Below are positions 12,246-62,858 of a DNA stretch of 64,000 nt, one piece after another (within the stretch, counting starts at the first letter, position 1; every line of letters begins with the position of its first letter). The stretch is from a virus. The stretch is from IMG/VR virus record IMGVR_UViG_3300032053_000009, positions 18,630-82,629 of that record; one strand, given 5' to 3'. The notes below the pieces were generated by a model. That model was not told the origin of the DNA, made no database searches, and saw nothing but the letters and a program-made list of their open reading frames with translations. Position numbers and translations under genes: made by a program.

Positions 12246-12288
12246 CACTAAAGTCTGGACTCGTTCAACCAGCGCCCACAGTCTTGAT

Positions 12289-13070: not shown

Positions 13071-13075
13071 ACCCG

Positions 13076-23252: not shown

Positions 23253-23253
23253 G

Positions 23254-24192
23254 TCACAAAACCTCTAAAAGCAAATATTCGGATGTAGTTGACGAAAACA
23301 ATTCTGCTGCGTGAAACGCTGTCAATGGACTACCCGATACGCTGCTACCAGCAAAATATCCACTATGATTCGATTCCGCTGCAAAACCCAATGCTCCAAT
23401 AACCACCAAGCCGCCAGCCGGATTGCCCGTTTTCCAATTCGTTGAACTAAAAACTGTGGCTGTCGGCACGGCTGCCATTGGCACAAAATAGTGAATTGGA
23501 AATTCGCACGCTGACGTAGATAGAGCTATGCCGATTGCCACATCTTGATTAATTGCCCCGCCACCAAATTTTTGGCAATAACGCAAACACCGTGAAAAAT
23601 TATCAGCAGGTTGCAACGGCACAAATGATAACGATTGGCTACCAACACATAGCATGACATTATCAATATAAATCGTAGCCACATTAACGTCGCTGGAAAT
23701 CATACCGATCTCCAAATATAATTGGCTGGTTGCTGAATAAACAGTTTGCGTGGCGGTCAAGGTCTGCCAGGTATTATCTCCGGTATGATAATCCGACGGA
23801 GTGTTAAAGATACTATCCCGCAATCTGATCTTTGCCGTGTTAGCGACATTGCATTTTATTCTCGCCGACGCCGATACGGTCAAGCCAGCATACGCTGAAG
23901 CGTTTTCCACGAATCCAACAATGCGACACACGGTGGCGCCGCCAACCGCCGTCACGTTCAATTTAAGAGAATATGAACCCTTACCATCAATAATGCTTGA
24001 CTCTTGGCTAATGGTAAATGTTGGAGACCCAATTAGCGACACTTGCCACTTATCTGCCGTGTACGCATTAATGCTTGGATTAGAAAACGATATTCCTCTC
24101 TGCCACACTTCCATTCCTCCATTATTAAGAAGATTGAGAAATGGCGAAAACGCATTTGGATCTAAAGCCCGATTAACTACAGTCGTTCCCAT
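23254..24192 (-). CDS. Tail fibre / receptor-binding protein, variant C-terminus
   Basis: 312 residues from the ATG 24190-24192 (TAATG; GAGGTG in the last codons of the upstream gene). One galactose-binding-like domain (N-G-G-M-E-V-W-Q-R-G ... Y-H-T-G-D-N-T-W-Q) and R-C-L-R-Y-C-Q, then a head unlike the others, ending T-S-E-Y-L-L-L-E-V-L rather than W-T-A-E-V-T. This is the array member whose head looks most recently or most completely exchanged. Confidence 0.82.
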   Translation of the reverse strand: MGTTVVNRALDPNAFSPFLNLLNNGGMEVWQRGISFSNPSINAYTADKWQVSLIGSPTFTISQESSIIDGKGSYSLKLNVTAVGGATVCRIVGFVENASAYAGLTVSASARIKCNVANTAKIRLRDSIFNTPSDYHTGDNTWQTLTATQTVYSATSQLYLEIGMISSDVNVATIYIDNVMLCVGSQSLSFVPLQPADNFSRCLRYCQKFGGGAINQDVAIGIALSTSACEFPIHYFVPMAAVPTATVFSSTNWKTGNPAGGLVVIGALGFAAESNHSGYFAGSSVSGSPLTAFHAAELFSSTTSEYLLLEVL

Positions 24193-26333: not shown

Positions 26334-26340
26334 TTTATCC

Positions 26341-27825
26341 TCACGACGTTGCCGTCCAATTAAACGCCATACGCACAGGACGTTGCCCACCTATGGTCTT
26401 GCTGGCTCTCAACGAAAAGCCACGCAACAAATGATCGGTGATGCCTAAAAGCAAAGTGTAGGCCGCCACAGCGTTTGTTATCCCCAAACCGTCTTCATAG
26501 ATCTGCACGTTCGTTAATGCTATCACGGGCGCCGATGCCTTGACCACATTAAAATCAATGTCATCATCAATATAATAGGTCGTGTCGTCGGAAGCGCCAT
26601 ATTTTGAAAAATCATTGTAACCCACTTCAAAGTATCGCTGGCTCCGATCCCAATCTTCCGCAGGACTGAGCGCTGCGAACGTAAGTGGATCAGTGTTTTG
26701 AACAGCCATAGCGCCATCGACGTAACACGTTTGGCTGGCGTTGATTTCAATCGAAAACGTGAGTGACGTGATCCCAACCGCAGGCGTGCGTGTGACGGAA
26801 AGCGTCTCATATGACCCCGTGCCTGTGTTGGCTGCCGATGACGTGGAGCCATTGCTGTCCGTGATTTTGGCGACAATGCTGGTGGCTGCACCAGGTCGCA
26901 CCCGAATCGTGAACGCCACCGCACGATTCTGATAATCCAAATAGTTTTCAATGGTCTGCGACAGCGATACCACGCCAGACGAAATAGTAACCACAGCCTT
27001 CAATGCCGCAGGCGAGTTGTCAACAAACGTCATCTCTTTTGAAATTGACGCCGTGTTGCTGCCGAGCGCCAGCGTCCAGCGATCTGCGGTAAAGCCATTG
27101 GTCGTGAACGCTCCGCCGCCACGCTGCCAAATCGAGAATCCGCCATTGGTAAGAAGATTGATCGCTGCTGAGCCACCCACATTTGAAATCCGAATCTTGT
27201 TACCAACGGTCAGGGTCTCAAGAAGGATATTGGTGCCGCCCTCCAAGCTAACGTTATCGGTCAACGTCAGTCCGCCCACTTGGGCTAACGTTTTAACCAC
27301 TTGACCAGAAGCTATCTTGTCAGAGGTGACGGCATTCACAGCCAATTTTGAATTGGTAATGGCTGAATCAGAAACGTCTGTTTGAACAATGGTTCCAGGG
27401 GCGATTTTGTCAGATGTGACCGAATCGGGCGCCAGCTTGATGTTGGTGATGGCATAGTTTTCAATCTGGGTAATTCCCACCGCTCCGGTCGCCAGCTTGG
27501 ATTGAATTACAGCGGTGTCAGAAATGTTCGTGCTCGTGACAGCATTCACCGCCAACTTCGGATTAGTAACAGCCGAGTTTGACAGCTCAAGAGTATCGAC
27601 AGCGCTGGGCGCTATGTCAACGGCAATAACTGTCCCGTCAGCGATCTTGTCCGACGTAACGGAACTGGGAGCCAGCTTATCGTTGGTGACAGCCAGATCT
27701 CTAATCTTGCCCGTGATAACGGATTGGTCTTCAAGCTGTGTCAGACCAACCGCACCGTTAGCGATAACGGGCTGCGTTACCGATTGGCTGGCGTACTCTT
27801 GTGTTTGAACAAATGTTCTGGACAT
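26341..27825 (-). CDS. Tail fibre: beta-repeat shaft plus NGGFE domain
   Basis: 494 residues; AAGAGGT follows the upstream stop codon and precedes the ATG. Residues 1-190 are shaft repeats of the form A-V-T-x-x-K-L/I-A-x-x-A-V, also present in the 1,406-residue fibre next door. Residues 225-395 are one galactose-binding-like domain (N-G-G-F-S-I-W-Q-R-G-G). The C-terminal head ends A-F-N-W-T-A-T-S. The N-terminus M-S-R-T-F-V-Q-T is nearly the same as that of the neighbouring long fibre (M-S-R-T-F-I-Q-T), so both may attach to the same baseplate site. Confidence 0.85.
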   Translation of the reverse strand: MSRTFVQTQEYASQSVTQPVIANGAVGLTQLEDQSVITGKIRDLAVTNDKLAPSSVTSDKIADGTVIAVDIAPSAVDTLELSNSAVTNPKLAVNAVTSTNISDTAVIQSKLATGAVGITQIENYAITNIKLAPDSVTSDKIAPGTIVQTDVSDSAITNSKLAVNAVTSDKIASGQVVKTLAQVGGLTLTDNVSLEGGTNILLETLTVGNKIRISNVGGSAAINLLTNGGFSIWQRGGGAFTTNGFTADRWTLALGSNTASISKEMTFVDNSPAALKAVVTISSGVVSLSQTIENYLDYQNRAVAFTIRVRPGAATSIVAKITDSNGSTSSAANTGTGSYETLSVTRTPAVGITSLTFSIEINASQTCYVDGAMAVQNTDPLTFAALSPAEDWDRSQRYFEVGYNDFSKYGASDDTTYYIDDDIDFNVVKASAPVIALTNVQIYEDGLGITNAVAAYTLLLGITDHLLRGFSLRASKTIGGQRPVRMAFNWTATS

Positions 27826-47129: not shown

Positions 47130-48488
47130 TTAGACCGCAGTGTTGACGAAGATGCTGAACGTCACTTGAATGAAGCGCAACGGAAACACCGGAGCCACTT
47201 CAAACGACACGTTCACCTGGCGAGGATCAACAAGGTCGAGCTTCGCCGTGATGTTACGGAACGCTGTGATGATGCTTGAGCTGATGAAGTTTTGGAGTAT
47301 CGACTGCACGCTGGCTTCGATGTTCTTCGTCGTGCCGCCAAGCAGTTTCGTTCCAATGTACCTCGCATCAAGCGCTGCCCTCACAGTTTTTCGCAACACA
47401 TCTTTTATTCTCCGAACACTGGGTTCCACTCGCTCAATACTGGACACGTCCGTGGTTGATGCTTCTTTCACGTACACGCCACTATCATTCTGTTGGAGAA
47501 TTGTGACCCCAGAGCGAAGCATGAACAGAATTTCGCTTCGGATATATTTGAAGTTGTTGACATCCAATCTTGCTGGCAACTTTTTGCGCAGCAGCGGCGT
47601 GGCAACATCATTGGCTGCTTCAACGCCAGCGAAGGCTGCACCTGCGTAGATGGAAGACACAACCAAACGAACATCTTGGGTCGTGCCAATATCTTTCACG
47701 GTGACGCCAACTGACGCCGGAGCAATGAGATTCACACGGTCGCTTGCGATTTGAGTCGCCATACCGCCAATGGTTTGCACGGTATCATTCAGATTGCTTG
47801 ACGCAATCCAAGCATGACGCTCTTTTTGGTTGAAGTCAGTCGATTGCAATTCGACATGATTGATGACAGCGGTGCGAACTTGTGAGTTCGTCACGCCAGT
47901 CACGATCACGGTATCGACTTCTTCTCTTTCTAATTTCGCCAATGCGTCAATGTAAGAGCTTGTTTGCCCATCCACCGCTTGAACAGCCACAACCACGGTT
48001 CCGTCTCCGCCCGCTTCAAACGCCAACAAAGACGCCAGCGTTATTTCGCTGATGACTCCATTGTTTAATTCAGCGCCATACGTCGCTCTCACGTCGTCGA
48101 TGCTGAAGAACGTTTTTGCGTCATAATAGGAAGCGTCCTTCACTAAGTTGTAAGACACATAGTACGACGCACCTGTGTTCGGCTGTTGTCCTGACGGCAA
48201 CCACTGAACTTGATTATCGTTTTGATTGAAGTCAGTTCCGGCGACAAAGTTGAAATACCCTGGCGCCTCACCAACCCCAATGATCGAAGCTACTTCGCCC
48301 GTGAGCGTGTCTGGAATAATGTCAGAGCCATTGGTTAAGCCTTTGACCGTTTCCACGTTATCAACTTCAACGGTCGCACTGCCTGTACCAACGATTCCGG
48401 CGATATTCTGCACGCCAGGACCAAGAGCCAATGATGGATTTTCGATTTCCGATACAATCACACCAGATTCTTTAACGTTAATAGACAT
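47130..48488 (-). CDS. Tail sheath protein
   Basis: 452 residues, strong AGGAGGAG upstream. N-terminal V-I-V-S-E-I-E-N-P-S, a central G-V-T-V-K-D, I-Y-A-G-A-A-F-A-G-V, then T-I-L-Q-Q-N-D-S-G-V-Y-V-K-E, and the C-terminal block F-I-S-S-S-I-I-T-A-F-R-N-I-T-A, D-P-R-Q-V-N-V-S-F-E-V and P-L-R-F-I-Q-V-T-F match contractile sheath proteins, whose C-terminal strands link neighbouring subunits. It is the contractile outer layer. The strong ribosome binding site fits a highly expressed gene. Confidence 0.88.
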   Translation of the reverse strand: MSINVKESGVIVSEIENPSLALGPGVQNIAGIVGTGSATVEVDNVETVKGLTNGSDIIPDTLTGEVASIIGVGEAPGYFNFVAGTDFNQNDNQVQWLPSGQQPNTGASYYVSYNLVKDASYYDAKTFFSIDDVRATYGAELNNGVISEITLASLLAFEAGGDGTVVVAVQAVDGQTSSYIDALAKLEREEVDTVIVTGVTNSQVRTAVINHVELQSTDFNQKERHAWIASSNLNDTVQTIGGMATQIASDRVNLIAPASVGVTVKDIGTTQDVRLVVSSIYAGAAFAGVEAANDVATPLLRKKLPARLDVNNFKYIRSEILFMLRSGVTILQQNDSGVYVKEASTTDVSSIERVEPSVRRIKDVLRKTVRAALDARYIGTKLLGGTTKNIEASVQSILQNFISSSIITAFRNITAKLDLVDPRQVNVSFEVAPVFPLRFIQVTFSIFVNTAV

Positions 48489-50070: not shown

Positions 50071-50545
50071 AATCAAGCACCTCGCTCGAAGCCAGCTCAT
50101 TTGGACTGATCAATTTGTCCAACATTGGCGTTAATGGGAAGCCCGATTCCTTAAAAGCCGTATCCACCCAGCCAGAACACACCTTGTGGCACTGGGTCAC
50201 GCCAAATTTTCCCAAAATCATGTTCAAAAAACTGTAGTGGTCGTTGATGTTCATATAGCACCAGTAAATCGCCCGTATTTTGACAGCATCCGAGCACATC
50301 GGGCGATAAATTACTTTCGGTCTCATGTCATCGGCAAAAAACTCAAAATTGGGCCGAGGCCACTTCATCTGAATAATAATGTCCGGCTCCGAACTCACCA
50401 TAGCCACGTGCGTATAGCCTGGGTATTGAACCTTGCCCATTTCCCCGCCGATCTTCTGAAGCCAGGCAAAGAAATTGTGCTTCCAGGCATCATCGTCTGG
50501 ATAAAAAATCAAATCTCCTGGCTTCAGAACATTCACTGCGTTCAT
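50051..50545 (-). CDS. Permuted NlpC/P60 (YiiX-like) papain-fold protein
   Basis: 164 residues. The order of motifs is that of circularly permuted NlpC/P60 proteins: K-P-G-D-L-I-F-Y at 8-15, Y-T-H-V-A-M-V at 44-50 (His46), and H-K-V-C-S-G-W-V-D-T-A-F at 120-131 (Cys123) as nucleophile. Members of the family cleave amide or ester bonds in peptidoglycan, lipid or protein substrates. Here it lies in the neck region between two unknown structural genes and the FN3 protein, with ATGA and 20-base overlaps. It could be a virion enzyme or a late modifying enzyme; the substrate is unknown. Confidence 0.75.
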   Translation of the reverse strand: MNAVNVLKPGDLIFYPDDDAWKHNFFAWLQKIGGEMGKVQYPGYTHVAMVSSEPDIIIQMKWPRPNFEFFADDMRPKVIYRPMCSDAVKIRAIYWCYMNINDHYSFLNMILGKFGVTQCHKVCSGWVDTAFKESGFPLTPMLDKLISPNELASSEVLDYVMSST

Positions 50546-51171
50546 TGAAAATACTCCGACAGAATGTTGAAGTACCGAGTCTCGGTTTCGCTCAATCCAT
50601 CAGGACAATGCACGTGAACACGGAGCTTGAGCGACGTTGGAAAGGCCATAGATTCGTCACTAATAAACGGAATTAAAATTCCTTTTGCCAGATAGACATT
50701 TTGAATCATGTTTGGCATATACACCTGGCTGGTGGCAGCCAAAAGAACATCCGTATTGATGTATTCGTCTGGGTCATCCGAGTTCGTGTAACAATATCCG
50801 CCACGGAAATAAACTTGGGTCGGCCAAGAGATATCAACAAACGAATAGGTCATCCCAGGGTCCATGACGACCTGATACCCTTTCCACTTGTTATAAGTGT
50901 TCATGGGCTGTGGCGACATTGACAATCGTTCTGGACGACCTGTGCCAGCTTTCACTTCCAAAGGAGCATTGGCAGTTGATTTGAAATTGGCTTCAAAATC
51001 TGTTTGGTCCGAACCACCATCCTTGGGAATAGTGGTATGCCACAAGAAAGCACCCGCTTCTGGGGCGAACAGGTCATAATTGTCCGGCATTTCTGAATAC
51101 TGAATCAATAACGCCTTGGAAGTCACCAAAGCCTTAAATGCTGTCCAAGATGAAAGCTCCATAATCTGCAT
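50542..51171 (-). CDS. Virion-type protein, paralogue of next upstream gene
   Basis: 209 residues from the ATG 51169-51171 (TAATG junction; GGAGGGAAG upstream). The N-terminal 70 residues match the neighbouring gene: M-Q-I-M-x-x-x-S-W-T-x-x-K-A, L-L-x-Q-Y-x-E, Y-D-x-x-A-P-E, F-L-W-x-x-x-I-x-K-D, D-Q-x-D-F-E-A-N. The remainder is beta-rich and different, with D-I-S-W-P-T-Q-V-Y-F-R-G-G. Probably a structural protein; family unknown. Confidence 0.65.
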   Translation of the reverse strand: MQIMELSSWTAFKALVTSKALLIQYSEMPDNYDLFAPEAGAFLWHTTIPKDGGSDQTDFEANFKSTANAPLEVKAGTGRPERLSMSPQPMNTYNKWKGYQVVMDPGMTYSFVDISWPTQVYFRGGYCYTNSDDPDEYINTDVLLAATSQVYMPNMIQNVYLAKGILIPFISDESMAFPTSLKLRVHVHCPDGLSETETRYFNILSEYFQ

Positions 51172-51839
51172 TAGACTTCCCTCCATGTCAGGTTAATTCC
51201 AGCCGGACGGCTGTTCCCGAAACAAGTCAGCGTAAACAGGATGGTATGATTCGGGTCGATGATTAACGGGTCGTCACCAAAATCATATTCCTTAGTTTCC
51301 CCTGTCATGCTATGAAGCGTTTTTGTTTTTGTCCCAAAAGCTGATGTCGTCGGGCTAAGAAACAGGTTCATGGCAGATGATGGCGGTGAGGTCATTGCCT
51401 TTCCCCAAATGGGCGTGTATGCTGTCCCATTCGCTGTCACCGTCGGGTCGTAATAAATCCTGGCCGTGATTGCGCCAGACGTGTTGGACTGGCAAGCAAA
51501 CAGAACTTCATCCATGCGAATAATCTTTCCGCTTGCCGCAGGATTTTTAACCAAAATAATCGGCACTTCGGTTTGGCTTACCGTCACTTCATAGGTCAAA
51601 CGGAATCCATAATTGCCTTCCGCAAAGATGGTCTTGTTGGCGTATGGCTTGTAGTTCGCCTCAAAATCTATCTGGTCAGCTCCACTATCCTTGTAAATCT
51701 TGATATTCCAAAGGAAAATGTCGCCCTCTGGTGCGTAGACATCGTAAAAATTGTCCACCTCCGCATATTGCATCAACAATTGCTTTGCAACAGCCATTGC
51801 CTTGTAGCTTGTCCATGATGTCATTGCCATTATTTGCAT
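51171..51839 (-). CDS. Virion-type protein, paralogue of next downstream gene
   Basis: 222 residues; the last codons of the upstream repeat protein (E-V) supply GAGGTA before this ATG. N-terminal 70 residues paralogous to the product at 50542-51171, then a beta domain (T-A-R-I-Y-Y-D-P, H-T-I-L-F-T-L-T-C-F-G). The beta domain recalls the C-terminal jelly-roll-like domain of the upstream repeat protein, although I cannot align them with confidence. Possibly a decoration or whisker subunit; inference only. Confidence 0.65.
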   Translation of the reverse strand: MQIMAMTSWTSYKAMAVAKQLLMQYAEVDNFYDVYAPEGDIFLWNIKIYKDSGADQIDFEANYKPYANKTIFAEGNYGFRLTYEVTVSQTEVPIILVKNPAASGKIIRMDEVLFACQSNTSGAITARIYYDPTVTANGTAYTPIWGKAMTSPPSSAMNLFLSPTTSAFGTKTKTLHSMTGETKEYDFGDDPLIIDPNHTILFTLTCFGNSRPAGINLTWREV

Positions 51840-51842: not shown

Positions 51843-54800
51843 TTATACCTCGTACCCGCCAAAATTACCCACCCATATCCTGCTTGATGCGCCCGCTGGC
51901 GTCGTCACCCAACGAATGACCGTTCCAGCGGCCACAGGAAGCGGATCACTAAATGGATAAACACCAGGACCGTGGCCAGGCCATTGTCGATAATCACCCA
52001 ATACTTTTGTTCCGCTTGGATTTTCAAAGCTCGCAAGCCCCAAAATATCATTGGAATTGGATGCGGTCGTAAGCGATGCTCCGACCCCGACATATTCAAG
52101 ATAAAGCGTTTTCCCAGCCGTCACCGTATAGGTCAAAATTATTTGGTCTGCGGTTGTCGCTGTTGTCGTCAAACTTCCTGTCTTCATAACGACGGTTTTC
52201 TTGCCAGTCGAAGCGTTAAGACTGGTCGTCAATCCAACCACCTCGTCAAAAATCATTATCGACAGTTGAGCCACTTCTTGAGAAAGCAATGGTCGCAAAT
52301 CAATACCAGAAACAGCCGTATTTGTAATGATTTGGGACAGCTGCTCCACTTCTTGAGAGCCGTAGAGCTGAAGCGTGGTGAGCTGTTGAATTTCAACAAC
52401 AACCGCCGTATTAAGATTGGAAAGCTGTGTAACCTCTTGGCTCAATAGGGGTCTAATGTCGATTCCAGAAGTCGCTGTGTTGGTAATGATTTGGGACAGC
52501 TGGGCCACTTCTTGCGCCAACAGCGTCACTTGGCTGTCGTTTGACACATTCAAAGTTGTCAGCTGTCCAACTTCTTGAGCAAGCGTCACATTGACCGTTG
52601 TGAGTTGAGTTATTTCCAAAGCCACGGCAAGATTCAAGTCGGAAAGCTGAGTCACTTCTTGGCTCAGAAGCGGACGAATGTCAATTCCTGAAACAGACGT
52701 GTTTGTAACAATGCTCGACAGCTGTCCAACTTCCTGCGCCAACAAAGTTATTTGTGCTGTTTGGTTTGCCGCCGTCGCCACGTTCAAATTAAGCGTTGAA
52801 AGCTGGGCAACCTCTTGCGAGCCATAAAGCTGCAAAGTCGTGAGCTGAGTAACTTCCTGCGTCAGCAAGATCACCTGACTGTCATTGGACGCATTTAAGG
52901 TTGATAACTGAGCAACTTCTTGGACCAAGGTCGTATTGACAGTCGTTAATTGCGTCACCTCCAAGGCGACCGCCGCATTGAGATCCGAAAGTTGAGTCAC
53001 TTCTTGCGAAAGCAATGGTCGTATGTCAATACCGGAAACGCTGGTGTTGGTAATAATCTCAGATAGTTGCGCAACTTCCTGCGTCAATAAAGTGGTAAGC
53101 GGCGCAGAACTCGCATCCGCTGTAAGGGTGATAATTGTTGAAAGCTGCCCCACTTCTTGTGACCCATATAATTGAAGCGTTGAAAGTTGAGTGATCTCAT
53201 GAGCCAAATACGCACGAGTATCAATGCCAGACACTGCCGTATTGACAATTATTTGAGACAACTGCGCCACTTCTTGTGAACCGTAGAGCTGAAGCGTTGT
53301 CAATTGAGTGACTTCAACAACAATGGCCGTATTCAAATCGGAAAGCTGTGTGACTTCCTGTGAGAGCAGAGGGCGCAGGTCGATATCAGAAACGCCAGTG
53401 TTAGTGATGATTTGGCTTAACTGGCCCACTTCTTGAGCCAGAATAATCATGGTATCCGTGAAGCCAGCCGCTGTCGTGGCTATCTGCGTCCGAGCCAAGC
53501 CTTCCAACTCATCGGTGTTTACATCAATGTCGCCAATGTTAATGGACAAACCCTTCAACTCCTGAAGCACACTTAATTGAGTGACTTCAGTCGCCACACG
53601 AATTTGCAGATCAGAAAGTTGGCCAACCCCTTGCGCCAGCAAAACATTTCCATCGGTTTGGTTAATTTCAACCACACTCAACTGGGACACGGCTTGAAAT
53701 CCATAAAGCTCAAGCGTGGATAATTGTTCAACCTGATGACTCAAAATAGGCGTCGTATCGACAGCAACTGTTCCAGTGTTGGTTATTATTTGGCTAAGCT
53801 GAGCTACTTCCTGGGCAACCAAATTCTGAACATTGGTAAATCCATTAGCGATTGTGGCTGTCTGAAGTCTTGTTAAATTTTCCAAGTCGTCAGTATTGAG
53901 ATCGATATCGCCAATGTTAATGGACAGCCCGCTCAGCGATTGAAGCACACTCAGCTGAGTCACCTCGGTTGCTAAACTGGTTTGTAAATCCGAAAGCTGA
54001 GCCACCTCTTGTGCCAACAATGCCCCGCTATCAATTTGGTTAATCTCCACCTGGCTGAGCTGGCTCACCATTTGAGACTCATAAAGCAAGGTCGTGGACA
54101 GCTGAGTGATCTGATTCATCGTTGTCAGGTCGATGGTTGTCAGCTGCGAAATCTCCAACGAAACGGACACATTCAAGTTGCTAAGCTGGTCCACCTGCTG
54201 CGAGCCATAAAGTTCAAGCGTTGAGAGCTGCGTCACTTGATGGCTAAGGAGCTGGGTCGTATCGATTCCGCTTGCGCTCGTGTTGGTAATGATTTGGCTT
54301 AGCTGTGCAATCTCTTGAGACATCAAAGCGCTGTTGCTGACTTGATTGAGTTCAATTTGGCTGAGCTGAGATACTTCTTGGCCGAGCAATAAATAAACAT
54401 TGGTGAACCCTTCCACGGTCGCCAAGATAACGTTGGTCAATCCCTCCGCATTGGACGCTTGGAACTGGCGTGTCAAATCTTCAAGCTGGTCAGTGTTTAC
54501 ATCCACATCCCCAATCGTAATGGACAATCCTTGAAGCTCACTGATGATGGTAGAAAGTTGTCCAACTTCAAAGGCAACATTCGGAGACAGCAAACTGGTG
54601 TTGATTTCAATTTGTGAAAGCTGAGCCACTTGCTGGTCCAGGCTGGGGCTGGTGACGGTCGCAACCGTGTTAATTTTGGCTATGAAATAAGTGACACGGA
54701 CATTGTTGGCTGGTGAGGCCGGAATCGCAGCCGTTGTTACGATTATTTGTCCAGACACTGTAAACGACGTAAAACCTGTCCAATTGATTCCATCAGCCGT

Positions 54801-54998
54801 TATTTCAATGACAACATTGGTTAGGACGGGAGTGTGGGACAAAAGAAATTGCTGCCCAACGGCGTTGTTTCCAGTATATTTTTCCTGAATAGAAAAGAAC
54901 GCACCAATGACTTGGAGCGAATTGTCTCTGACCCGTGCCGCTTCTTTCGTAAGCGGGTCTCTAATGAATAAATCCGAAGATACGCCTTCAAAGCTCAT
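51843..54998 (-). CDS. Giant QLS-repeat protein (37 copies) with C-terminal beta domain
   Basis: 1,051 residues, GGAGG upstream; ATGA overlap with the related gene before it. Residues 1-120 are a globular head. From about residue 121 to 920 the protein is built of units carrying E-V-x-Q-L-S/T, 37 by my count. Most repeats are 14, 21 or 25 residues apart, the last containing N-T-x-V-S-G-I-D-x-R-P-L-L-S-Q. Longer inserts, G-L-S-I-N-I-G-D-I-D-x-N-T-D-x-L-E, occur three times. The heptad-like spacing with hydrophobic residues suggests a long trimeric coiled-coil or mixed fibre. The last 115 residues are a beta-sandwich-like domain, possibly receptor-binding. No known family recognised. Confidence 0.75.
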   Translation of the reverse strand: MSFEGVSSDLFIRDPLTKEAARVRDNSLQVIGAFFSIQEKYTGNNAVGQQFLLSHTPVLTNVVIEITADGINWTGFTSFTVSGQIIVTTAAIPASPANNVRVTYFIAKINTVATVTSPSLDQQVAQLSQIEINTSLLSPNVAFEVGQLSTIISELQGLSITIGDVDVNTDQLEDLTRQFQASNAEGLTNVILATVEGFTNVYLLLGQEVSQLSQIELNQVSNSALMSQEIAQLSQIITNTSASGIDTTQLLSHQVTQLSTLELYGSQQVDQLSNLNVSVSLEISQLTTIDLTTMNQITQLSTTLLYESQMVSQLSQVEINQIDSGALLAQEVAQLSDLQTSLATEVTQLSVLQSLSGLSINIGDIDLNTDDLENLTRLQTATIANGFTNVQNLVAQEVAQLSQIITNTGTVAVDTTPILSHQVEQLSTLELYGFQAVSQLSVVEINQTDGNVLLAQGVGQLSDLQIRVATEVTQLSVLQELKGLSINIGDIDVNTDELEGLARTQIATTAAGFTDTMIILAQEVGQLSQIITNTGVSDIDLRPLLSQEVTQLSDLNTAIVVEVTQLTTLQLYGSQEVAQLSQIIVNTAVSGIDTRAYLAHEITQLSTLQLYGSQEVGQLSTIITLTADASSAPLTTLLTQEVAQLSEIITNTSVSGIDIRPLLSQEVTQLSDLNAAVALEVTQLTTVNTTLVQEVAQLSTLNASNDSQVILLTQEVTQLTTLQLYGSQEVAQLSTLNLNVATAANQTAQITLLAQEVGQLSSIVTNTSVSGIDIRPLLSQEVTQLSDLNLAVALEITQLTTVNVTLAQEVGQLTTLNVSNDSQVTLLAQEVAQLSQIITNTATSGIDIRPLLSQEVTQLSNLNTAVVVEIQQLTTLQLYGSQEVEQLSQIITNTAVSGIDLRPLLSQEVAQLSIMIFDEVVGLTTSLNASTGKKTVVMKTGSLTTTATTADQIILTYTVTAGKTLYLEYVGVGASLTTASNSNDILGLASFENPSGTKVLGDYRQWPGHGPGVYPFSDPLPVAAGTVIRWVTTPAGASSRIWVGNFGGYEV
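52240..54660 (-). repeat. Coding repeat region for QLS units
   Basis: About 2.4 kb of DNA made of related units of 42, 63 and 75 bases encoding the E-V-x-Q-L-S motif. The DNA copies differ often at third codon positions while the amino acids are conserved. A second, shorter set lies in the upstream gene at about 55280-55830. Confidence 0.75.
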
Positions 54999-56152
54999 GC
55001 TGTGCCTCCATTGGCATAAATCTGCAAATCAACGGGAATCGTTGATGTCGTCACAAACATTGTGTCCGTGTTTTGCTCCTCAAAAGTAAATCTCCCGTTC
55101 GCCAAATTGATTGCCGGATTGGATATAGAGCCAAACTTTACCGACACCGGATTGCTCGTCGCAAAATACACATCCTGCATCCGAACCCCAAAATTGTATG
55201 TCACATCCGTTAAGCCCGCTGGCTGCGTTGTCTCAAAAGCATAATACTTTCCGTGCGGAGCCGATGTCGTTATTGACAGCCCTTCCAATGTCTGCAACAC
55301 GCTCAGTTGTGTGACTTCTTGATTCAGCGTGGTGGAACTGAAGTTAAAGCACAGCCCTTCCAAATCATAAAGGATGCTGAGTTGAGTGACCTCCTGCGCC
55401 AGTGACGTAGAATCCAAATTAACACAGAGACCCGACAGCTCTTGGAAAATGCTGAGCTGTGTTTGTTCCGTCGCCAGCCGCATCTGCAAATCAGAGAGTT
55501 GAGTCACCTCCTGCGCTTCAAGCGCCAGAACATTGGTTAAGCCTTCCGCAATCGTCCCTGTTTGAATTCGAGTCAGGGTTTCCAGCTCGTCCGTATTGAC
55601 ATTTACATCCCCAACAGAAACAGACAACCCATCCATTGCCGCCAGGATACTCAGCTGCGTCACTTCCTGGTTGAGCGATGGTGCGTTAAAGCACAACCCC
55701 TTCAACTCTTGAAGGACGCTCAACTGTGTAGCTTCCGTGGCGACGGTCGTTATCAGGTCAGACATCTGCGCCACCTGCTGCGAAGCCAGGACCAGTCCTT
55801 GTAAGATCAAATCAATCTGCGTCAGCTGGCTGGCCTCCAACGCCAACGTGGGACTGGTCAAGCTCAAATTCCAAGTCCCATCAAGGTTAGGCGTGGCCAA
55901 AAGGTCGTGCTTGTTCCCCAGTGAATCAACGCCCTGAATGATGACCTTTCCAATCGTTATGGGCGGCAGCGCTATTTCCGTGTTGGATGCCAGGGCATAC
56001 TGATCCGTGGTCCCATCTATCAACGAAACGTTGATGGGAACAATAACACCATCCGAGCGCTGGCCCGCCAATACAGCAACGTATTCGGAGTCAGCACTCC
56101 GTGGAAAGTGCTTCTTGTTTAGATCAGGATGCCAAGTTGGAAATATCTCCAC
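54995..56152 (-). CDS. QLS-repeat protein, short paralogue, GTG start
   Basis: 385 residues from a GTG at 56150-56152, with GGGGGTGAG upstream. Residues 1-105 form a beta-rich domain (V-P-I-N-V-S-L-I-D-G-T-T-D, I-G-K-V-I-I-Q-G-V-D-S-L-G-N). Residues 105-290 contain eight QLS-type motifs, including E-V-T-Q-L-S, and one G-L-S-V-S-V-G-D-V-N-V-N-T-D-E-L-E insert identical in plan to those in the giant neighbour. The last 95 residues are a distinct beta domain. The two proteins probably act together in the particle. Confidence 0.7.
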   Translation of the reverse strand: MEIFPTWHPDLNKKHFPRSADSEYVAVLAGQRSDGVIVPINVSLIDGTTDQYALASNTEIALPPITIGKVIIQGVDSLGNKHDLLATPNLDGTWNLSLTSPTLALEASQLTQIDLILQGLVLASQQVAQMSDLITTVATEATQLSVLQELKGLCFNAPSLNQEVTQLSILAAMDGLSVSVGDVNVNTDELETLTRIQTGTIAEGLTNVLALEAQEVTQLSDLQMRLATEQTQLSIFQELSGLCVNLDSTSLAQEVTQLSILYDLEGLCFNFSSTTLNQEVTQLSVLQTLEGLSITTSAPHGKYYAFETTQPAGLTDVTYNFGVRMQDVYFATSNPVSVKFGSISNPAINLANGRFTFEEQNTDTMFVTTSTIPVDLQIYANGGTA

Positions 56153-56155: not shown

Positions 56156-58618
56156 TCAACTCACCCCCGCTGGTTGAAGCTCTTTTTTGGCCTGAGCTTC
56201 TTTAAGCCGTTGCAGCGTCAGCTCAATCGCTTTCAAATTATCGTCAATCTTTTTAATGTGAGACGGATGACTATTGGTTCCGATATTCATTTTTGCTTTC
56301 GAGAACGCCTCATGAGCTTCATCATATTGGCCACGATTAAACAAGATGACGCCAATATCATTCCAGGCACCCCACAACTTTGGATCAAGCTCAACCGTCT
56401 TCCTGTACAGGATAAGCGCTTCATCAAACTTTTTCGTGTGATAAAGATGAATCGCCCGAATAAAAAACGGACGAGGATCTTTAGGCGTCAGCTCGCACTG
56501 ACGTTCAGCCAGCTTGTAATACCAATCATGCTTGGCGTTCAGGGAATGCTTCTCTTTCAAATATCCAAAATGATAGAGAGGCGTTTCTGTTCGCACGATA
56601 TTGACCTTGCGCACTTTGCCCAACTCAACCAAGCTGTCGTCAATGTCTTCATGCACAAGTCTCGTGTAGAAAATACGAGGATCGTTGACGAACATTCGCA
56701 GTGTTTCAGATAACACCCAATTTGAATCCCATCCTTTCACGTGCGGATCTTCCTGATAGTTACGAATCGGGAACAGATAAGCATCCACGTTTTCTCGTTG
56801 CGCCAACTTCCAAATGTTAAAGAGTTGATCCCGTGGTATCACTTCATCCGCATCAAGCCGCAATATCCAAGGCTTTGTGCACGAACGCACCGCTGCGTTA
56901 CGAGGCTCGGCAAAGCCTTGCGTTGGAATGTCCCAAGGAAATTCAATCACCCTGGCGCCAAGCGATTTGGCGATTTCAACAGTCTTGTCCGTGCTTCCGG
57001 TATCGCACACCACCACTTCGTCAGCGATAGCCAGCCCGCTTTTAATCGCTCGCTCAATGTTTTCCTCTTCATTTTTAGCCATGATGCTTAAGCTAAGTTG
57101 ATTGTACCGAGGCAGCTTTTTCTTCCAGTCATTGAATTTGGTCAGCTCGTCATTAAACCGTTTGTCCTCATCTTCAATGCGCTTAGCCTCAATTTCTGGC
57201 GACTCTTTATAGCCGTCCGGCTTCTCCAAATGATCCGGCGTACAGTGCGTGTCTGCCCAGAGCTTATAGCCAGCACAGATCGCCCGTGTGCAGAAGTCCC
57301 GATCTTCACCACGCATATTGCTTGGCAAATTTGGCACCCTGGTATAGCTGACGCCCTTCTCTACTACCTCTTTCCATATCAGCGTGCACGCCCCCAAGCC
57401 ACCCACTGGATACATCCCAGGACGCTTCAACATAGAGATAAAATCATTGCTGATTTCATACCCGCCACGAATCCAAACGTTCGGAAGCGGCTGAGCATCT
57501 TTGTGACCCCAAATCGCCCAAAACACTTCGGACACGATTGGTCGTTCAAGCCCAACCATATGCTTCACAATGCGTGGGTGGCGAATAATGATGTCTGAGT
57601 CGATCATGAACAGCGCTTCCGAGCTGAACTTGTGCAGCGACGCCAGCGCACGATTCCTCATGTAAGCCATGTTTGCCAGCTTCTGATCTTCCCACGTGTG
57701 CTCTTTGTCAGAAGCGTTGCCGAAGTTGATGGTCTCGATCTCAATGAGCTTGTATATTTTGTCCTTCAACGCCGCCCACGTTTTCAGCTTTTCATGCGTG
57801 TCATCATAAGAGTCATTGACAATAAAATAGAAACTCAGCTTGTCCTTGGGGTAATCAATACTCTCCAACCCTTCCAAGAACCGATCCAAAACCCAGCCAC
57901 GATTGCGCAAAAGCGAAGCCACCAAAATCGGCGGCCACTCAATCTCGTCCTTAAATGGCTTGAGCTTGGGCGCCATAAAAATGGAATGAGCGTGCTCAAG
58001 ATTGATCCCTGTCGCCCGCTGAAGATAGAACTCGTACTTGCGCTCCTTATCAGCGTCTTTTGCCCATCCCCAATGATTCAAAAACAGATCCGAACGAGCT
58101 GTACCATTTAGAGTCTCGGCAATGTACCGAGGCACGCAGCCGCAATGAATGGCGCCCGCAAAGCCAAACGGCTGATCCTTGTACCGGAAGAGCCGTGTGA
58201 TGAGCGGACTCCAATACCCATCCACCCTGTACTCGTTCTCATTCCACATATCCAAGAGCCGAACCGAATACCAATCGTACTTGTCGGTCTTGATCAGCTC
58301 CGGCAGCTCCTTTATAAAGCTGTCGCTGAATGTTTCGTCAGCGTCTTGACTGATGATCCAATCCCCTTCTTTGGCAAACTTCTTTGTCAATTCCCATTGC
58401 ACGTTGCGAAGTTTTGATTCATCAATTCCGAACATAGACTGGTCAAACGGCGACGTAAAAAACGTCACCTTGGGATACGACCGACAAATTTCCTCGGTCT
58501 TGTCCGTGCTGCGATCATCCAGAACAAGAATCTTGTCTGCAAACTTCGACGCATTGTCAAGAACCCGTTTCAGGTATCTGTCGGCTTCATTGCGAAGCAT
58601 TATTTGAGTAATGATCAT
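56156..58618 (-). CDS. Multi-domain family-2 glycosyltransferase with TPR
   Basis: 820 residues, AAGGAGA before the ATG. Domain 1 (1-220) is GT2-like: L-R-N-E-A-D, L-D-D-R-S-T-D-K-T, and D-A-D at 92-94. Domain 2 (230-475) is a second GT fold, N-D-S-Y-D-D-T, D-S-D at 340-342 and a late R-G-E-D-R-D-F-C. Domain 3 (505-690) has S-I-M-A-K-N-E-E-E-N-I, C-D-T-G-S-T-D-K-T-V-E-I-A and D-A-D at 589-591. Residues 705-790 are two TPRs (A-I-H-L-Y-H-T-K-K-F-D-E-A, D-I-G-V-I-L-F-N-R-G-Q-Y-D-E-A). It probably transfers sugars to a virion or host surface target. Confidence 0.85.
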   Translation of the reverse strand: MIITQIMLRNEADRYLKRVLDNASKFADKILVLDDRSTDKTEEICRSYPKVTFFTSPFDQSMFGIDESKLRNVQWELTKKFAKEGDWIISQDADETFSDSFIKELPELIKTDKYDWYSVRLLDMWNENEYRVDGYWSPLITRLFRYKDQPFGFAGAIHCGCVPRYIAETLNGTARSDLFLNHWGWAKDADKERKYEFYLQRATGINLEHAHSIFMAPKLKPFKDEIEWPPILVASLLRNRGWVLDRFLEGLESIDYPKDKLSFYFIVNDSYDDTHEKLKTWAALKDKIYKLIEIETINFGNASDKEHTWEDQKLANMAYMRNRALASLHKFSSEALFMIDSDIIIRHPRIVKHMVGLERPIVSEVFWAIWGHKDAQPLPNVWIRGGYEISNDFISMLKRPGMYPVGGLGACTLIWKEVVEKGVSYTRVPNLPSNMRGEDRDFCTRAICAGYKLWADTHCTPDHLEKPDGYKESPEIEAKRIEDEDKRFNDELTKFNDWKKKLPRYNQLSLSIMAKNEEENIERAIKSGLAIADEVVVCDTGSTDKTVEIAKSLGARVIEFPWDIPTQGFAEPRNAAVRSCTKPWILRLDADEVIPRDQLFNIWKLAQRENVDAYLFPIRNYQEDPHVKGWDSNWVLSETLRMFVNDPRIFYTRLVHEDIDDSLVELGKVRKVNIVRTETPLYHFGYLKEKHSLNAKHDWYYKLAERQCELTPKDPRPFFIRAIHLYHTKKFDEALILYRKTVELDPKLWGAWNDIGVILFNRGQYDEAHEAFSKAKMNIGTNSHPSHIKKIDDNLKAIELTLQRLKEAQAKKELQPAGVS

Positions 58619-58636
58619 TTGTTTCTCCTTGTGTTT

Positions 58637-59332
58637 TCAGTTTTCATTTACGTATTCCTCTACAGTCGCCGGAGTAGTGATTGATTTGGCATGTTCCAAA
58701 TTAACCCCATCCGCACGACCGTCAAGATAAAATTGTTGTTTGGCTAACCGTTTGTCTTCGTTAGCCCAGCCCCAATGAATAATCTTTATGTCCCGCCGCT
58801 CAGTGCCGTTTGCACTGTCCACGATATACTTCGGCAAAAGCGGAACGTGATTAACCGCTGTCGGCAACTCCGCTGGCAAATTCTTATATCGAAAGAAAAC
58901 CTCTTTCACTGGCGACCAATATCCATCCACCCTGTACGTTGTCGGCGACCACATATCCAAAAGCCGAAACCGGAACCAATCGTGTTCAGATGCCATCAGC
59001 TCCTTAACTTTTAAGGTGAATGACTTTTCTATTTCTTCATCAGCGTCAAGCGCCAAAATCCAATCCCCATCTTTGGCAATCTCGCACGTTTTCTGCCACT
59101 GCACTTCACGAAACTTCGGCTCATTGATCGGATACATCGGAACATCAAAGGGCGATTCACGAAATAGAATATTCGGAAACGACCGACACACCGATCTCGT
59201 GGCGCCTCCGTCATCGCTCTTATCGTCCAAGATCATGACGTAATCAACAGCGTCGGTAATAGAAGTCAGCACCTTCACAAAGTAAGAATTGTGAGCTTCA
59301 TTACGCACGATCATGGATGCCACGATAGCCAT
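58637..59332 (-). CDS. Family-2 glycosyltransferase, single domain
   Basis: 231 residues, GGAGAAAT before the ATG. It parallels domain 1 of the upstream large enzyme throughout: M-I-V-R-N-E-A, I-L-D-D-K-S-D-D, S-P-F-D-V-P-M, V-Q-W-Q-K, D-A-D at 96-98, Y-R-V-D-G-Y-W-S-P and H-W-G-W-A. The two are thus paralogues that arose by duplication or splitting. The DAD motif binds the metal-nucleotide sugar. Substrate unknown. Confidence 0.85.
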   Translation of the reverse strand: MAIVASMIVRNEAHNSYFVKVLTSITDAVDYVMILDDKSDDGGATRSVCRSFPNILFRESPFDVPMYPINEPKFREVQWQKTCEIAKDGDWILALDADEEIEKSFTLKVKELMASEHDWFRFRLLDMWSPTTYRVDGYWSPVKEVFFRYKNLPAELPTAVNHVPLLPKYIVDSANGTERRDIKIIHWGWANEDKRLAKQQFYLDGRADGVNLEHAKSITTPATVEEYVNEN

Positions 59333-59962
59333 TTATTTCTCCAACACTACGCCATAGACAGCCAATTGATCGACATGACAATCAATGTCGAACTCACGAC
59401 TGGTCAACACATCCACGGGAAGCACCGGAGTAATACCAAGATTTCCTGCGAACTTGGTAAAGTCGGCCAACGAGAACTGATACGGGCTTGGCTCAATGCT
59501 GACATCCACGGTGAGATAAAAACGACACCCTGGCTTGAGCACTCTCATACACTCATTGAACGTCTCCATCGGATCATTGCCTACGTGCTCCAAAACGCTG
59601 ATGCAAAAAACAGCATCAAAGTTATTGTCTGGGAACGGCATTTTTCTAACATCCGAAACACACGGAACGAGATTTGGAAGCTCTTGTTCGTGCACAGCAA
59701 TCGCTGGGTCGATGTCAACATTAACGACCTTCTTCACTTTCTTGCACAGATACCGCTGAAACACGGAATGACCGCCGCCCGCATCCAGCACGACATGATC
59801 AATGTCCAGATAAGTGTCCTGAAGTATGATCCACGGGTACTCCCATTGACGGCTCCACGCCAGCCGACCTTTGTTCAGCATCTCCAAGTCTTTCTTCATG
59901 GAGACGAACTCCGGCTTAAGCAGATCCGTTTTGAGTCCATATGTATGCGATATGACTTTCAT
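59333..59962 (-). CDS. SAM-dependent methyltransferase, class I
   Basis: 209 residues. Motif I is V-L-D-A-G-G-G-H-S at 58-66, a G-x-G-type loop; N-V-D-I-D at 81-85 is motif II; F-C-I-S-V-L-E-H-V at 119-127 and R-V-L-K-P-G-C-R-F-Y-L at 140-150 complete the class I pattern. It resembles methyltransferases found next to glycosyltransferases in surface-sugar clusters, so a sugar O-methyltransferase is plausible. It ends just at the start of the GT gene and is very probably co-translated. Confidence 0.82.
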   Translation of the reverse strand: MKVISHTYGLKTDLLKPEFVSMKKDLEMLNKGRLAWSRQWEYPWIILQDTYLDIDHVVLDAGGGHSVFQRYLCKKVKKVVNVDIDPAIAVHEQELPNLVPCVSDVRKMPFPDNNFDAVFCISVLEHVGNDPMETFNECMRVLKPGCRFYLTVDVSIEPSPYQFSLADFTKFAGNLGITPVLPVDVLTSREFDIDCHVDQLAVYGVVLEK

Positions 59963-59965: not shown

Positions 59966-60847
59966 TTATCCGACAACATTCAACTCGTGCGCCCAGTACG
60001 CACCTTCAACGCCGTTTTCCCACTTCACCATAAACGAGCCGTCCTTGTTTTTCTTCTGAACGATCCCTTGATGAGCACCTTTCGCCACCGTCGCTAACCG
60101 AGTCACGGGCTTGTACCCTTCTTCTTTGGGAACGACAAATGAGGCTTTCTTGTCCATCTTCGGAACCGACAACGCATTCAACACCGCCGTCGCTATACGT
60201 AACGACGCCTCTCTCTTTTTGTTTTTGTCTATGAATTCATCGAGAGTTGTTTTCTCGTTGGCGTTCCCAAACTTCTTAAATGAACAATATTCCTTTTGCT
60301 CCGCCTTCATGTAGAACGGACAAGCGCTGTCACCGAATGTGCCTCGGCACGCATGAATCTCAATTTTGACCTCATCCATCGGACAAATGGGAGCTTCTGA
60401 CTTCAGCTCTGCAAACACTTCAACGCCAGCCTTCGCTACCTTGGCGTTGTCGATACGAACCAAAGCGAATCCAGATTCCCAATCCAAATCAATAATGGAT
60501 GCCTTTTTTTGATATTTCTTGTTCACGTAAGCCAGCACTTCACGAGAAATGGTATTAGCATCCCAGTTTGTACTGTTCGTGTTTTTCAAGTCCCATTGCG
60601 CCGCCACAAAAAGAGCGTCATCTGCTGCCGCATAATGAGACCATTGCTCTGTCACTTTGCCAGACTCCACGGCTTGGAATTCTGTTGGTTCGTTCTGAGG
60701 TCGTGCCTCCCATACCGTCTTCGTCATATTCCACTTCCAAGACTTACCAGCACCAGGATCGGTCGTCGGTTTTGGAACGGATGGACGCTGTGCCACCCTA
60801 TGATGTCTTTGCTCCTTTAATGTTTGGAGCCGATCTTTAATGTTCAT
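59966..60847 (-). CDS. Hypothetical protein with Cys cluster and SH3-like C-terminus
   Basis: 293 residues, AGGAGGAA upstream. The N-terminal 60 residues are basic and look disordered. The middle has A-C-R-G-T-F-G-D-S-A-C-P-F-Y and Y-C-S-F, a three-Cys group that could bind metal. The C-terminal 45 residues (A-T-V-A-K-G-A-H-Q-G-I-V-Q-K-K-N-K-D-G-S, V-K-W-E-N-G-V) fit a small SH3/KOW-like barrel. Position between the ART-like and methyltransferase genes suggests a virion or head-associated role. Family not recognised. Confidence 0.65.
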   Translation of the reverse strand: MNIKDRLQTLKEQRHHRVAQRPSVPKPTTDPGAGKSWKWNMTKTVWEARPQNEPTEFQAVESGKVTEQWSHYAAADDALFVAAQWDLKNTNSTNWDANTISREVLAYVNKKYQKKASIIDLDWESGFALVRIDNAKVAKAGVEVFAELKSEAPICPMDEVKIEIHACRGTFGDSACPFYMKAEQKEYCSFKKFGNANEKTTLDEFIDKNKKREASLRIATAVLNALSVPKMDKKASFVVPKEEGYKPVTRLATVAKGAHQGIVQKKNKDGSFMVKWENGVEGAYWAHELNVVG

Positions 60848-60878: not shown

Positions 60879-62858
60879 TTACTTCGACGGCTGCTCTGAC
60901 ATACAAAGCGACCGACGTTGCAGGTAATCTTCTATTTCTAAAGCCTCATATACGTCAGGATCTTTCAGTGTCGGTTCTCTAAATTGGACAAATACCATCC
61001 ACTTCTTATGTTCCGTGCTCAACTCCGCTTGCGCCTGAACAAATGAAATGCACTCTGACCCGTCATCGTTAGCAATCAAACCATTCAGATCAGGCTTGCT
61101 CCTGGTGGGGGTTCCTGGGGGTAAATCGGGAGCGGACTCTCCTGGCTTGGCGGCCTCTCCTCGTCCTTCTTCTTTCGTCGTTTTTTCTTCGGGAGCGGTT
61201 TCGGTTCTTCGGGTAGAGGGTTTTTCTTGTCCTCCGGCTTTGACTCTATCGAGTCTTGCATTGGCAACCTCCAAAATAATTTTCGAGGCATCGGCAATCA
61301 TTTCGGCGGCGTTTCCATATTCCTGTTTCATGCTGGTTCGGAAATCAACCAACCCAACAGTGATGTCTTCAGGATCAATAAATCGTAGTTCGCCACTCGG
61401 CGTCTCGTTATCGACAGCCCAATAACGAATGCTGTCCACGGTGTCAATGTGTCCCAGCGCCTTGTAATATTCCAAATTGGCGTCATAGGAATCCCAAAGG
61501 ATCTGAAATTGATCCGGCGACAATGATTGATCCGCCGCAGACCGCACACCGTAATCAAGTCTGCTCTTCAAGCCTTTGCCTTCTAAAATGCTTTCGTCGT
61601 AATAGCGACGATCAATATCCTTCATGATCTCGTCTTCGGTTTTGTGACGCACAAATTCAATTTCATTCGGATGAACTTCAAAAATCTCCTGACCGTTAAT
61701 CGGTCTGTTCCAGCGAACCACGATGTCGATGTCGGCTTCGTGGTGCATCTTCGATATGGCAATCACCTCGCCCTCGGTGCTGGTGTTGATGTCCTTAACA
61801 ATATCCCCGACCGTTATCAAAAGCGTCTTCTCATCTTCAGCGCTAAATCGGTTCAAAGAATAATTGCCGTACCCGTCCTGAACCATTGTGCCTTTGCGCA
61901 TCAAGCCAAAGAGATGTTCTGGCGGATAAGCTAAATTGGATTTCTTCATTAAGGAAAGAAGGTACGGCGCCGCACGCTGAACGAACGACGGAATGTTCCT
62001 GGGATGAACTTCGCCGCAGTCGTTCACGAGTCCGTGAAATACAGCCAGCTCTTTTTTATCAGACACGACCGACAGCAAGTCCTCAAGGCTGAACGCCACG
62101 TCAAACGCCGACATCTTAAATGCCCTGCGACACCACGGGTTATAAACAGCCCTCACAAACAGCGGCGAAATGGCTGCTTTGGGCACGAAAAACGACACAT
62201 CTGCGTCACCATCTGACGGCACGCCTTCAACCGCATTGGGGGGCACTTTCACGATCACGACCTGATAGCCACGATGATTGGCTGCCACGCCAATTGAATC
62301 CGTCAAGGTCTCACTCTCCGGCACCCCGTTAGCCACCGGATCAGCAAAGCGGCTCACAGCGGCGTACAGCGTCAGCGACGCCTGCGTAGATGACAGCTCG
62401 TGATGAGGCAGGTTCAAAAACAATTCCACCATCTCCCACGCTTCATCAAATTTACCTTTGTCGATCAGATCCTTGAACTTCCTCAAATCCTCTTCATCCG
62501 CCCGTTGAATAAACTGAGCCGTCTCCATGACACCCATCCAACCAGGATAAAACAGGGATTGACGCTTTATGGATGACCGGATGTGAATCGGTGGGTTGTA
62601 AATAGACAATATGCGGTCGGCAGCAATCACTTTTTTGGTGTACATTCCGAGAGATCCAACCGACACAATGTGCTCGCCAGGAACGTCAACCTCAACCACC
62701 ACGGGCTTGCCTCCCGACAGCGCCCGCAACGAAGCGAAGAAAACGGCTTCATTGAGCGATGATGTCAACCACGCTGGCTGCTTATTTTCCCAGTCCCAAA
62801 GCCCATGTTTTGAAATCTTGTCTACGAGTGCGTCTGTTGTTCCGTGATAAACTTTCAT
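60879..62858 (-). CDS. ADP-ribosyltransferase-like N-terminal domain fused to large virion-type protein
   Basis: 659 residues. Residues 1-92 match the ART-like pattern of short YHGT proteins: V-Y-H-G-T-T at 3-8, a G-L at 19-20, P-A-W-L-T-S-S-L-N-E-A-V-F-F-A at 28-42, then V-V-V-E-V-D-V, and a terminal A-A-D-R-I-L-S-I-Y. Residues 100-480 are helical/beta and unfamiliar, with a DPEDITVG segment near 495. A Glu/Lys/Pro-rich linker is at 550-600, and a last domain follows to 659. The enzyme could modify host proteins at infection if packaged. Invariant catalytic Glu is not clear; assignment is from motif order. Confidence 0.6.
   Translation of the reverse strand: MKVYHGTTDALVDKISKHGLWDWENKQPAWLTSSLNEAVFFASLRALSGGKPVVVEVDVPGEHIVSVGSLGMYTKKVIAADRILSIYNPPIHIRSSIKRQSLFYPGWMGVMETAQFIQRADEEDLRKFKDLIDKGKFDEAWEMVELFLNLPHHELSSTQASLTLYAAVSRFADPVANGVPESETLTDSIGVAANHRGYQVVIVKVPPNAVEGVPSDGDADVSFFVPKAAISPLFVRAVYNPWCRRAFKMSAFDVAFSLEDLLSVVSDKKELAVFHGLVNDCGEVHPRNIPSFVQRAAPYLLSLMKKSNLAYPPEHLFGLMRKGTMVQDGYGNYSLNRFSAEDEKTLLITVGDIVKDINTSTEGEVIAISKMHHEADIDIVVRWNRPINGQEIFEVHPNEIEFVRHKTEDEIMKDIDRRYYDESILEGKGLKSRLDYGVRSAADQSLSPDQFQILWDSYDANLEYYKALGHIDTVDSIRYWAVDNETPSGELRFIDPEDITVGLVDFRTSMKQEYGNAAEMIADASKIILEVANARLDRVKAGGQEKPSTRRTETAPEEKTTKEEGRGEAAKPGESAPDLPPGTPTRSKPDLNGLIANDDGSECISFVQAQAELSTEHKKWMVFVQFREPTLKDPDVYEALEIEDYLQRRSLCMSEQPSK

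Follow-up and report, generated by a model that had tools for sequence, protein, structure and literature searches.

A three-domain glycosyltransferase among the structural genes of a phage and its possible role in fibre glycosylation

Known glycosylation systems and the three-domain enzyme

Glycosylation of mycobacteriophage virions has reportedly been described by Freeman et al. (2023). Proof of such modification in tailed phages appears, in the available portions of the literature consulted, to be confined to few phages, namely mycobacteriophages (Che8 gp110, Corndog gp38, Myrna), whose acceptors are capsid and tail-tube subunits (PMC12363180, PMC12619734). In chlorovirus PBCV-1, the A111/114R protein carries three glycosyltransferase (GT) domains on one chain, which, according to the accessible part of the source, are believed to attach the sugars of a virion glycan one after another (PMC7826918). 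Within protein glycosylation in bacteria, GmaR transfers N-acetylglucosamine (GlcNAc) to Listeria flagellin and its tetratricopeptide repeat (TPR) part is proposed, in the portion of the source available, to recognise the protein acceptor (PMC9638930). Here we describe an island of genes in a window of 64,000 nucleotides (positions 18,630 to 82,629 of the 146,629-base virus record IMGVR_UViG_3300032053_000009), the main element of which is an 820-aa enzyme, GTL, with three GT-like domains followed by TPRs. It is accompanied by a single-domain paralogue (GTS), a methyltransferase (MT) and two repeat proteins (QLS-S and QLS-L), whose coordinates are collected in Table 1. We hold it about evenly balanced whether this region constitutes a phage protein glycosylation cassette acting on virion fibre proteins, QLS-S and QLS-L above all.

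By analogy, the closest functional counterparts would be the virion glycosylation of mycobacteriophages and, for three GTs per chain, A111/114R. As in mycobacteriophages, the GTs are phage-encoded, virion proteins are the acceptors there and the proposed acceptors here, and the capsid-like protein of the window phage is distantly related to proteins annotated as major capsid proteins in Myrna and other phages (25-28%). However, the window phage has one three-GT chain with TPRs in the structural cluster beside repeat proteins, the enzymes of the two systems being likened from the descriptions in the source portions available. A111/114R, again likened by description, shares the presence of three GT domains on a single viral chain, but it belongs to an algal virus, acts on an N-glycan of the major capsid protein and has domains of about 300 aa, with TPRs going unmentioned in the accessible part of its source (PMC7826918). 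GmaR and the sublancin S-glycosyltransferase SunS resemble domain 3 of GTL in the order of a GT family 2 (GT2) domain and a helical or TPR part, whereas each has a single GT domain and GmaR has an antirepressor part as well. Phage GX15bay (MK557849) combines several GTs and a methyltransferase in one gene run, but as separate genes located upstream of the terminase and not beside fibre genes. No report of a three-domain GT beside fibre genes in a tailed phage was found in the open-licence literature, and most likely the known but rare idea that phages sugar-coat their particles is extended here by an unusual three-in-one enzyme.

An earlier note on this stretch, made from the sequence alone, had read GTL as three GT-like domains, each bearing a D-x-D motif, with TPRs on the same chain, accompanied by a single-domain paralogue and a class I methyltransferase, all among virion genes, and each of these points was borne out. 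In Pfam scans covering 68 proteins of the window phage (10 and 58) out of 195 open reading frames (ORFs) picked, GTL matched Glyco_tranf_2_4 (PF13704, residues 10-98) and Glycos_transf_2 (PF00535, residues 511-644; 2.3e-32 for the chain) above their cut-offs, and Anp1 (PF03452, residues 230-365) with 40.3 bits against a cut-off of 28.8, besides TPRs around residues 720-776. The D-x-D motifs (residues 92-94, 340-342 and 589-591) do not vary among the three phages found to carry the island. GTS aligns with domain 1 of GTL with 43% identity over 229 columns, gives a weak Pfam GT match (0.0029) and retains the D-x-D motif in all three phages, and MT matches a methyltransferase family clearly. The structural neighbourhood is confirmed by a tail sheath gene, together with baseplate and tail fibre genes, downstream of the island and by a capsid-like gene (a weak Pfam match) and a portal-like gene upstream; therefore the island lies between head and tail genes.

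Comparison with solved structures linked domain 3 and the beginning of the TPR region to GmaR (PDB 22ao, 3e-20) and SunS (PDB 7msp, 2.1e-12), domain 2 to procollagen galactosyltransferase 1 (5.4e-8) and domain 1 weakly to GmaR (2.3e-5). With the SunS family model TIGR04195 of NCBIfam, GTL scored 64.9 bits and did not reach the curated cut-off of 350. Since GmaR acts on flagellin and its TPR is a proposed acceptor-binding part, a protein acceptor is the natural first guess for GTL, whose TPR region is, by this analogy, a probable acceptor-binding scaffold. Domain 2 resembles the procollagen galactosyltransferase/Anp1 group in passing the Anp1 cut-off and in this structural match, but the latter is limited to about the first 140 residues. 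Domains 3 and 2 possess an acidic residue within H-E-D and G-E-D, respectively, which we take to be of the catalytic-base type, and domain 1 and GTS show no equivalent: in all six of their sequences, D-A-D-E and histidines are kept and the H-E-D of domain 3 is absent. The AlphaFold2 model of GTL is weak, with a mean predicted local distance difference test (pLDDT) score of 48.5, and a structure search with it returned mostly TPR proteins and, among the matches listed, one for domain 2 (9u7h, Z 13.0).

Conservation of the island and its repeat proteins

Relatives of the window phage were obtained from viral contigs, with GTS and a two-row GTL alignment retrieving G001 (90 kb) and with QLS-S, a three-row GTL alignment and the capsid protein retrieving both G001 and G002 (144 kb), while GTL alone and QLS-L alone retrieved nothing. 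In all three phages MT, GTL, QLS-S and QLS-L succeed one another in identical order next to the structural cluster, and GTS is in place in two of them (the window phage and G001). In G002, MT and GTL are separated by an endonuclease-like ORF of 182 aa (HNH by eye). Such ORFs (L017:7005-7553 and L003:8619-9374; HNH-like and NUMOD3-like by eye) have inserted around MT in both relatives, each at a different site, so mobile endonucleases seem to target the island. Among the shared genes that align over at least 100 columns (median identities 62% and 54%), GTL, with 77% and 75% identity to its counterparts, ranks 7th of 66 and 6th of 87; MT, with identities of 67% and 73%, is missing from this ranking, a longer shadow ORF on the opposite strand having been picked in its place. 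The rate of nonsynonymous substitution (dN) of GTL is 0.16-0.19, like that of the tail sheath (0.18-0.19), with the three domains and the TPRs similarly constrained, the linker less so and synonymous sites saturated. That GTL might be a moron was rejected in view of its place near the top of this conservation ranking and of its constant partners in all three phages. A search of genome contigs (host genomes) with the GTL alignment gave no relative. In tblastn searches of the phage collection, GTL had partial matches in 14 records, none covering 80%, its domain 2 had none, and GTS had a sole match in GX15bay at 26% identity.

The six QLS proteins of the three phages contain 117 strict repeat units, in which the residue after Q-L/M is Ser in 81, Thr in 29, Tyr in 5 and Asn and Ala in one each, amounting to Ser/Thr in 110 of 117. 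A binomial figure of 3e-64 for this enrichment treats related repeats as independent. The repeat Ser/Thr residues are encoded by TCN (48), AGY (33) and ACN (29) codons; the use of both serine codon families means that the hydroxyl residue is maintained at the protein level. More than one repeat per ORF was found, across all three genomes, only in the two QLS proteins, which contain no collagen repeat recognised by Pfam, and in no ORF out of 1,020 at the other loci described below. In contrast to the repeats, the ends of QLS-L vary: its N-terminus is common to the window phage and G002 (74%) with no match in G001, and the C-terminal parts of the three phages have no mutual match. End shuffling of this kind is typical of adhesin-like fibres. 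In the AlphaFold2 model of QLS-S (mean pLDDT 45.4) the sole confident part is the C-terminal domain, which matched spike and turret proteins of viruses (HCIV-1 VP9, Z 9.5; SH1, 9.2; HFTV1 turret, 8.6).

Related enzymes were also encountered in other phage lineages. A search with domain 2 yielded 27 loci, including those of G001 and G002, and 19 of the remaining 25 form one lineage. In every one of these 19, a gene for a domain-3-like GT and an Anp1-type gene of 287 aa share an overlap of 14 nt, several contigs having the same gene arrangement and hence representing fewer independent cases than 19. The domain-3-like protein has 354-356 aa (263 aa in L079, where the contig end truncates it) and corresponds to phrog_13126 (3.8e-70 for L091). 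Among the 16 of these loci with upstream ORFs, four have collagen-like or tail-spike clusters that scanning identified as tail proteins, and four carry cluster c21, one scanned member of which had an unknown family as its best match and a weak tail-fibre-assembly match. The fibre genes scanned encode collagen-like, S74-chaperone and tail-spike proteins, with collagen-like fibres adjoining some of these enzymes, and L091 has an additional Anp1-like GT gene flanked by two spike genes. The other six of the 25 loci have different contexts. Of the three activities combined in GTL, two are thus found elsewhere as an overlapping pair of genes, partly beside fibre genes. The search with the GTL alignment of three rows, which drew its patterns from domain 1, gave 28 loci (L040-L067) in addition to G001 and G002, each with a single-domain GTS-like gene of 37-39% identity.

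Proposed function and rival explanations

The cassette is envisaged to work in the cytoplasm of the host while virions are being assembled. The TPRs would hold GTL on a protein acceptor, the GmaR/SunS-like domain 3 would place a first sugar on Ser/Thr and the Anp1/procollagen-galactosyltransferase-like domain 2 would extend it, with domain 1 and/or GTS contributing a further sugar or helping with binding, and MT methylating either the sugar or the protein. No nucleotide-sugar gene was present among the Pfam matches of the 58 further ORFs, so the sugars would derive from the host pool. The most likely acceptors would be the neighbouring fibre proteins presumed to be on the virion, above all QLS-S and QLS-L, which are preferred for their Q-L-(S/T) repeats common to three phages while the ends vary; any glycan so built might shield the particle or alter adsorption. 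The acceptor role of the repeats is less certain than the modification of the particle. In a more elaborate version, which we regard as rather improbable, GTL would act as an assembly line on one polypeptide, making a short and possibly O-methylated oligosaccharide at the Q-L-(S/T) sites of a fibre at the head-tail junction. The product would be a mucin-like fibre with dozens of glycans per chain, whose sugar-bearing shaft, like the enzyme, stays constant and whose ends are swapped. If the QLS repeats are indeed acceptors, they would supply a simple repeated sequon with which glycoproteins could be made in bacteria. More broadly, TPR-bearing protein-type GTs fused to or overlapping with Anp1-type GTs by fibre genes, as seen in two lineages, would constitute a signature predicting glycosylated phage fibres, and could account for some of the GTs of environmental phages usually ascribed to modification of DNA or of the host surface.

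Several observations weigh against this proposal. The QLS proteins, presumptive virion components, have no sequence match in the phage collection, and the spike-like matches of QLS-S are modest and interspersed with unrelated beta proteins of similar Z. Given the absent H-E-D, domain 1 and GTS may not be ordinary transferases, and family searches with MT gave no specific substrate assignment. The GTS gene of G002 is located at 13965-14786, distant from the structural genes, and in all 28 loci with a GTS-like gene the same three genes follow it, within a replication-type block that by eye contains genes for a deoxycytidine monophosphate deaminase, a helicase and DNA polymerase III alpha; therefore the GTS-type family is not tied to virion genes. 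Eight of the 16 loci of the second lineage lack fibre/spike and c21 clusters, and some of these have genes for a sulfotransferase or an epimerase, which could act on glycans of the host surface. The conserved Ser/Thr of the repeat may, moreover, be structural. Repeat proteins often conserve polar stacks, and an explanation that falls only somewhat short of an even chance, and that overlaps with the others discussed below, is that Q-L-(S/T) is purely structural, for example as a Gln ladder with a Ser/Thr stack or as a coiled-coil flank, and that GTL acts elsewhere. The search pattern itself prescribed Gln in the repeat and nearly prescribed Leu. Repeat periodicity is similar for a helical and a beta arrangement (0.77 versus 0.85), and the fold may be a coiled coil or a beta structure; however, a purely structural role leaves unexplained the lasting linkage with GTL in three of three phages. 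The search for co-occurrence of QLS proteins and these GTs suggested by the earlier note was positive throughout this lineage (3/3) and negative outside it, with no QLS protein among 537 ORFs at the 28 loci with the single GTS-like gene or 483 ORFs at the 25 domain-2-like loci.

Where the sugar would be placed otherwise was considered for three further targets. Capsid or tail-tube proteins of the virion, with the QLS neighbours coincidental, make up a serious rival to the QLS proteins as acceptors, even if on balance an unlikely one: mycobacteriophages including Myrna, to whose capsid that of the window phage is distantly related, glycosylate both, as far as the available source portions describe (PMC12363180, PMC12619734), but GTL and both QLS genes have stayed adjacent in all three phages despite endonuclease insertions nearby. 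It is doubtful to a similar degree that the enzymes alter the host surface (wall polymer, lipopolysaccharide or capsule), for instance against superinfection or re-adsorption to debris. Such a role is suggested by the match of domain 3 to the GtrB-like O-antigen conversion family (phrog_841, 2.8e-6) and by GT clusters of other phages mixed with sulfotransferase/epimerase genes or forming arrays of GTs and methyltransferase, as in GX15bay. Against this stand the position of GTL inside the structural cluster in three of three phages with structural-gene-like conservation, the action of the closest characterised relatives of domain 3 and TPR on proteins, and the lack of a GtrA-type flippase among family matches in the part of the ORFs scanned.

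Far less probable is glycosylation of phage DNA on a modified base as restriction protection. Phage GTs glycosylate DNA in other systems, according to the available part of the source (PMC12619734), and the GTS-like family sits in its replication-type block at 28 other loci. However, GTL is linked to structural genes, thymidylate synthase/hydroxymethylase (PF00303) was found in none of the three phages, whose records may be incomplete, with 9 of 14 controls positive, and the 58 further ORFs gave in Pfam no DNA-modification family except generic methyltransferases. Thus, with neither a PF00303 gene nor a nucleotide-sugar gene, DNA glucosylation by the classical route through a hydroxymethylase is weakened and unlikely, PF00303-independent routes lying outside this argument. 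The earlier note had favoured modification of the particle over that of host DNA, and its interpretation is supported in part. GTS, which lies elsewhere in G002 and has its wider family in a replication-type block, shows no fixed link with the cluster. Of the two targets, the particle has the better support, as the head-tail junction position in three of three phages, structural-gene-like conservation, resemblance to protein GTs, fibre neighbours in part of the second lineage and the absence of PF00303 all favour it.

Gene organisation and neighbouring features

Along the minus-strand run, the order of transcription is the 293-aa gene, MT, GTS, GTL, QLS-S and QLS-L, with intergenic gaps of 3, 0, 18, 3 and -4 nt, and the ATG of GTL is preceded by AAGGAGA. 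From this packing of genes we infer co-transcription of the run. Promoter and terminator scans were uninformative, with 16 promoter-like matches versus 19.5 in shuffles (standard deviation 4.4), hence no excess.

Table 1. Features of the island and its surroundings, in window positions
Feature	Position	Strand	Basis or remark
GTL, 820-aa three-domain glycosyltransferase with TPRs	56156..58618	-	Pfam, D-x-D motifs
GTL domain 1 (residues 1-225)	57944..58618	-	DADE at 58337-58345; without H-E-D of domain 3
GTL domain 2 (residues 226-480), Anp1/procollagen-galactosyltransferase-like	57179..57943	-	D-S-D at 57593-57601; G-E-D at residues 437-439
GTL domain 3 (residues 506-700), GmaR/SunS-like GT2	56519..57103	-	DADE at 56846-56854; H-E-D at residues 656-658
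GTL TPR region (residues 705-776)	56291..56506	-	Pfam TPRs
GTS, 231-aa single-domain paralogue of GTL domain 1	58637..59332	-	43% identity over 229 columns
MT, class I methyltransferase	59333..59962	-	Methyltransf_11, 4e-20
QLS-S, 385-aa repeat protein	54995..56152	-	7 strict QLS units; C-terminal beta domain 301-385; candidate acceptor
QLS-L, 1051-aa repeat protein	51843..54998	-	38 strict units, 35 with Ser/Thr; exchangeable ends; candidate acceptor
293-aa conserved protein	59966..60847	-	directly upstream, same run; context
Tail sheath	47130..48488	-	phrog_2839, 3.9e-38; marks structural cluster
222-aa protein	51171..51839	-	C-terminal part homologous to QLS-L C-terminal part of G002 (35%, 3e-20)

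Next to QLS-L, the adjacent proteins encoded at 51171-51839 and 50542-51186 have their N-terminal 78 residues in common (49%). Together with the match of the former to the QLS-L C-terminus of G002, this is, judged by sequence comparison, apparent domain shuffling among fibre-like genes. On the other side of the island, a 659-aa protein (60879-62858) is 51-52% conserved in both relatives and had no Pfam match above the cut-off and no NCBIfam match, and its N-terminus (YHGT...) presumably resembles, by eye, an ADP-ribosyltransferase-type fold. Near the tail-fibre end, a run of genes for proteins of 314, 701, 315, 319, 319 and 732 aa (16500-26390) has the same few relative genes as best matches and is probably, on these similarities, an expanded tandem family. 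A 1277-aa protein (L009:6813-10646) with a match to DarA_C, a family of defence against restriction (1.6e-6), is possibly an ejected antirestriction protein. The 20 ORFs scanned from L007 and from window 614-16046 include one for a TROVE/Ro60-like protein (6.5e-16) that has a vWA domain, which to our knowledge is unexpected in a phage.

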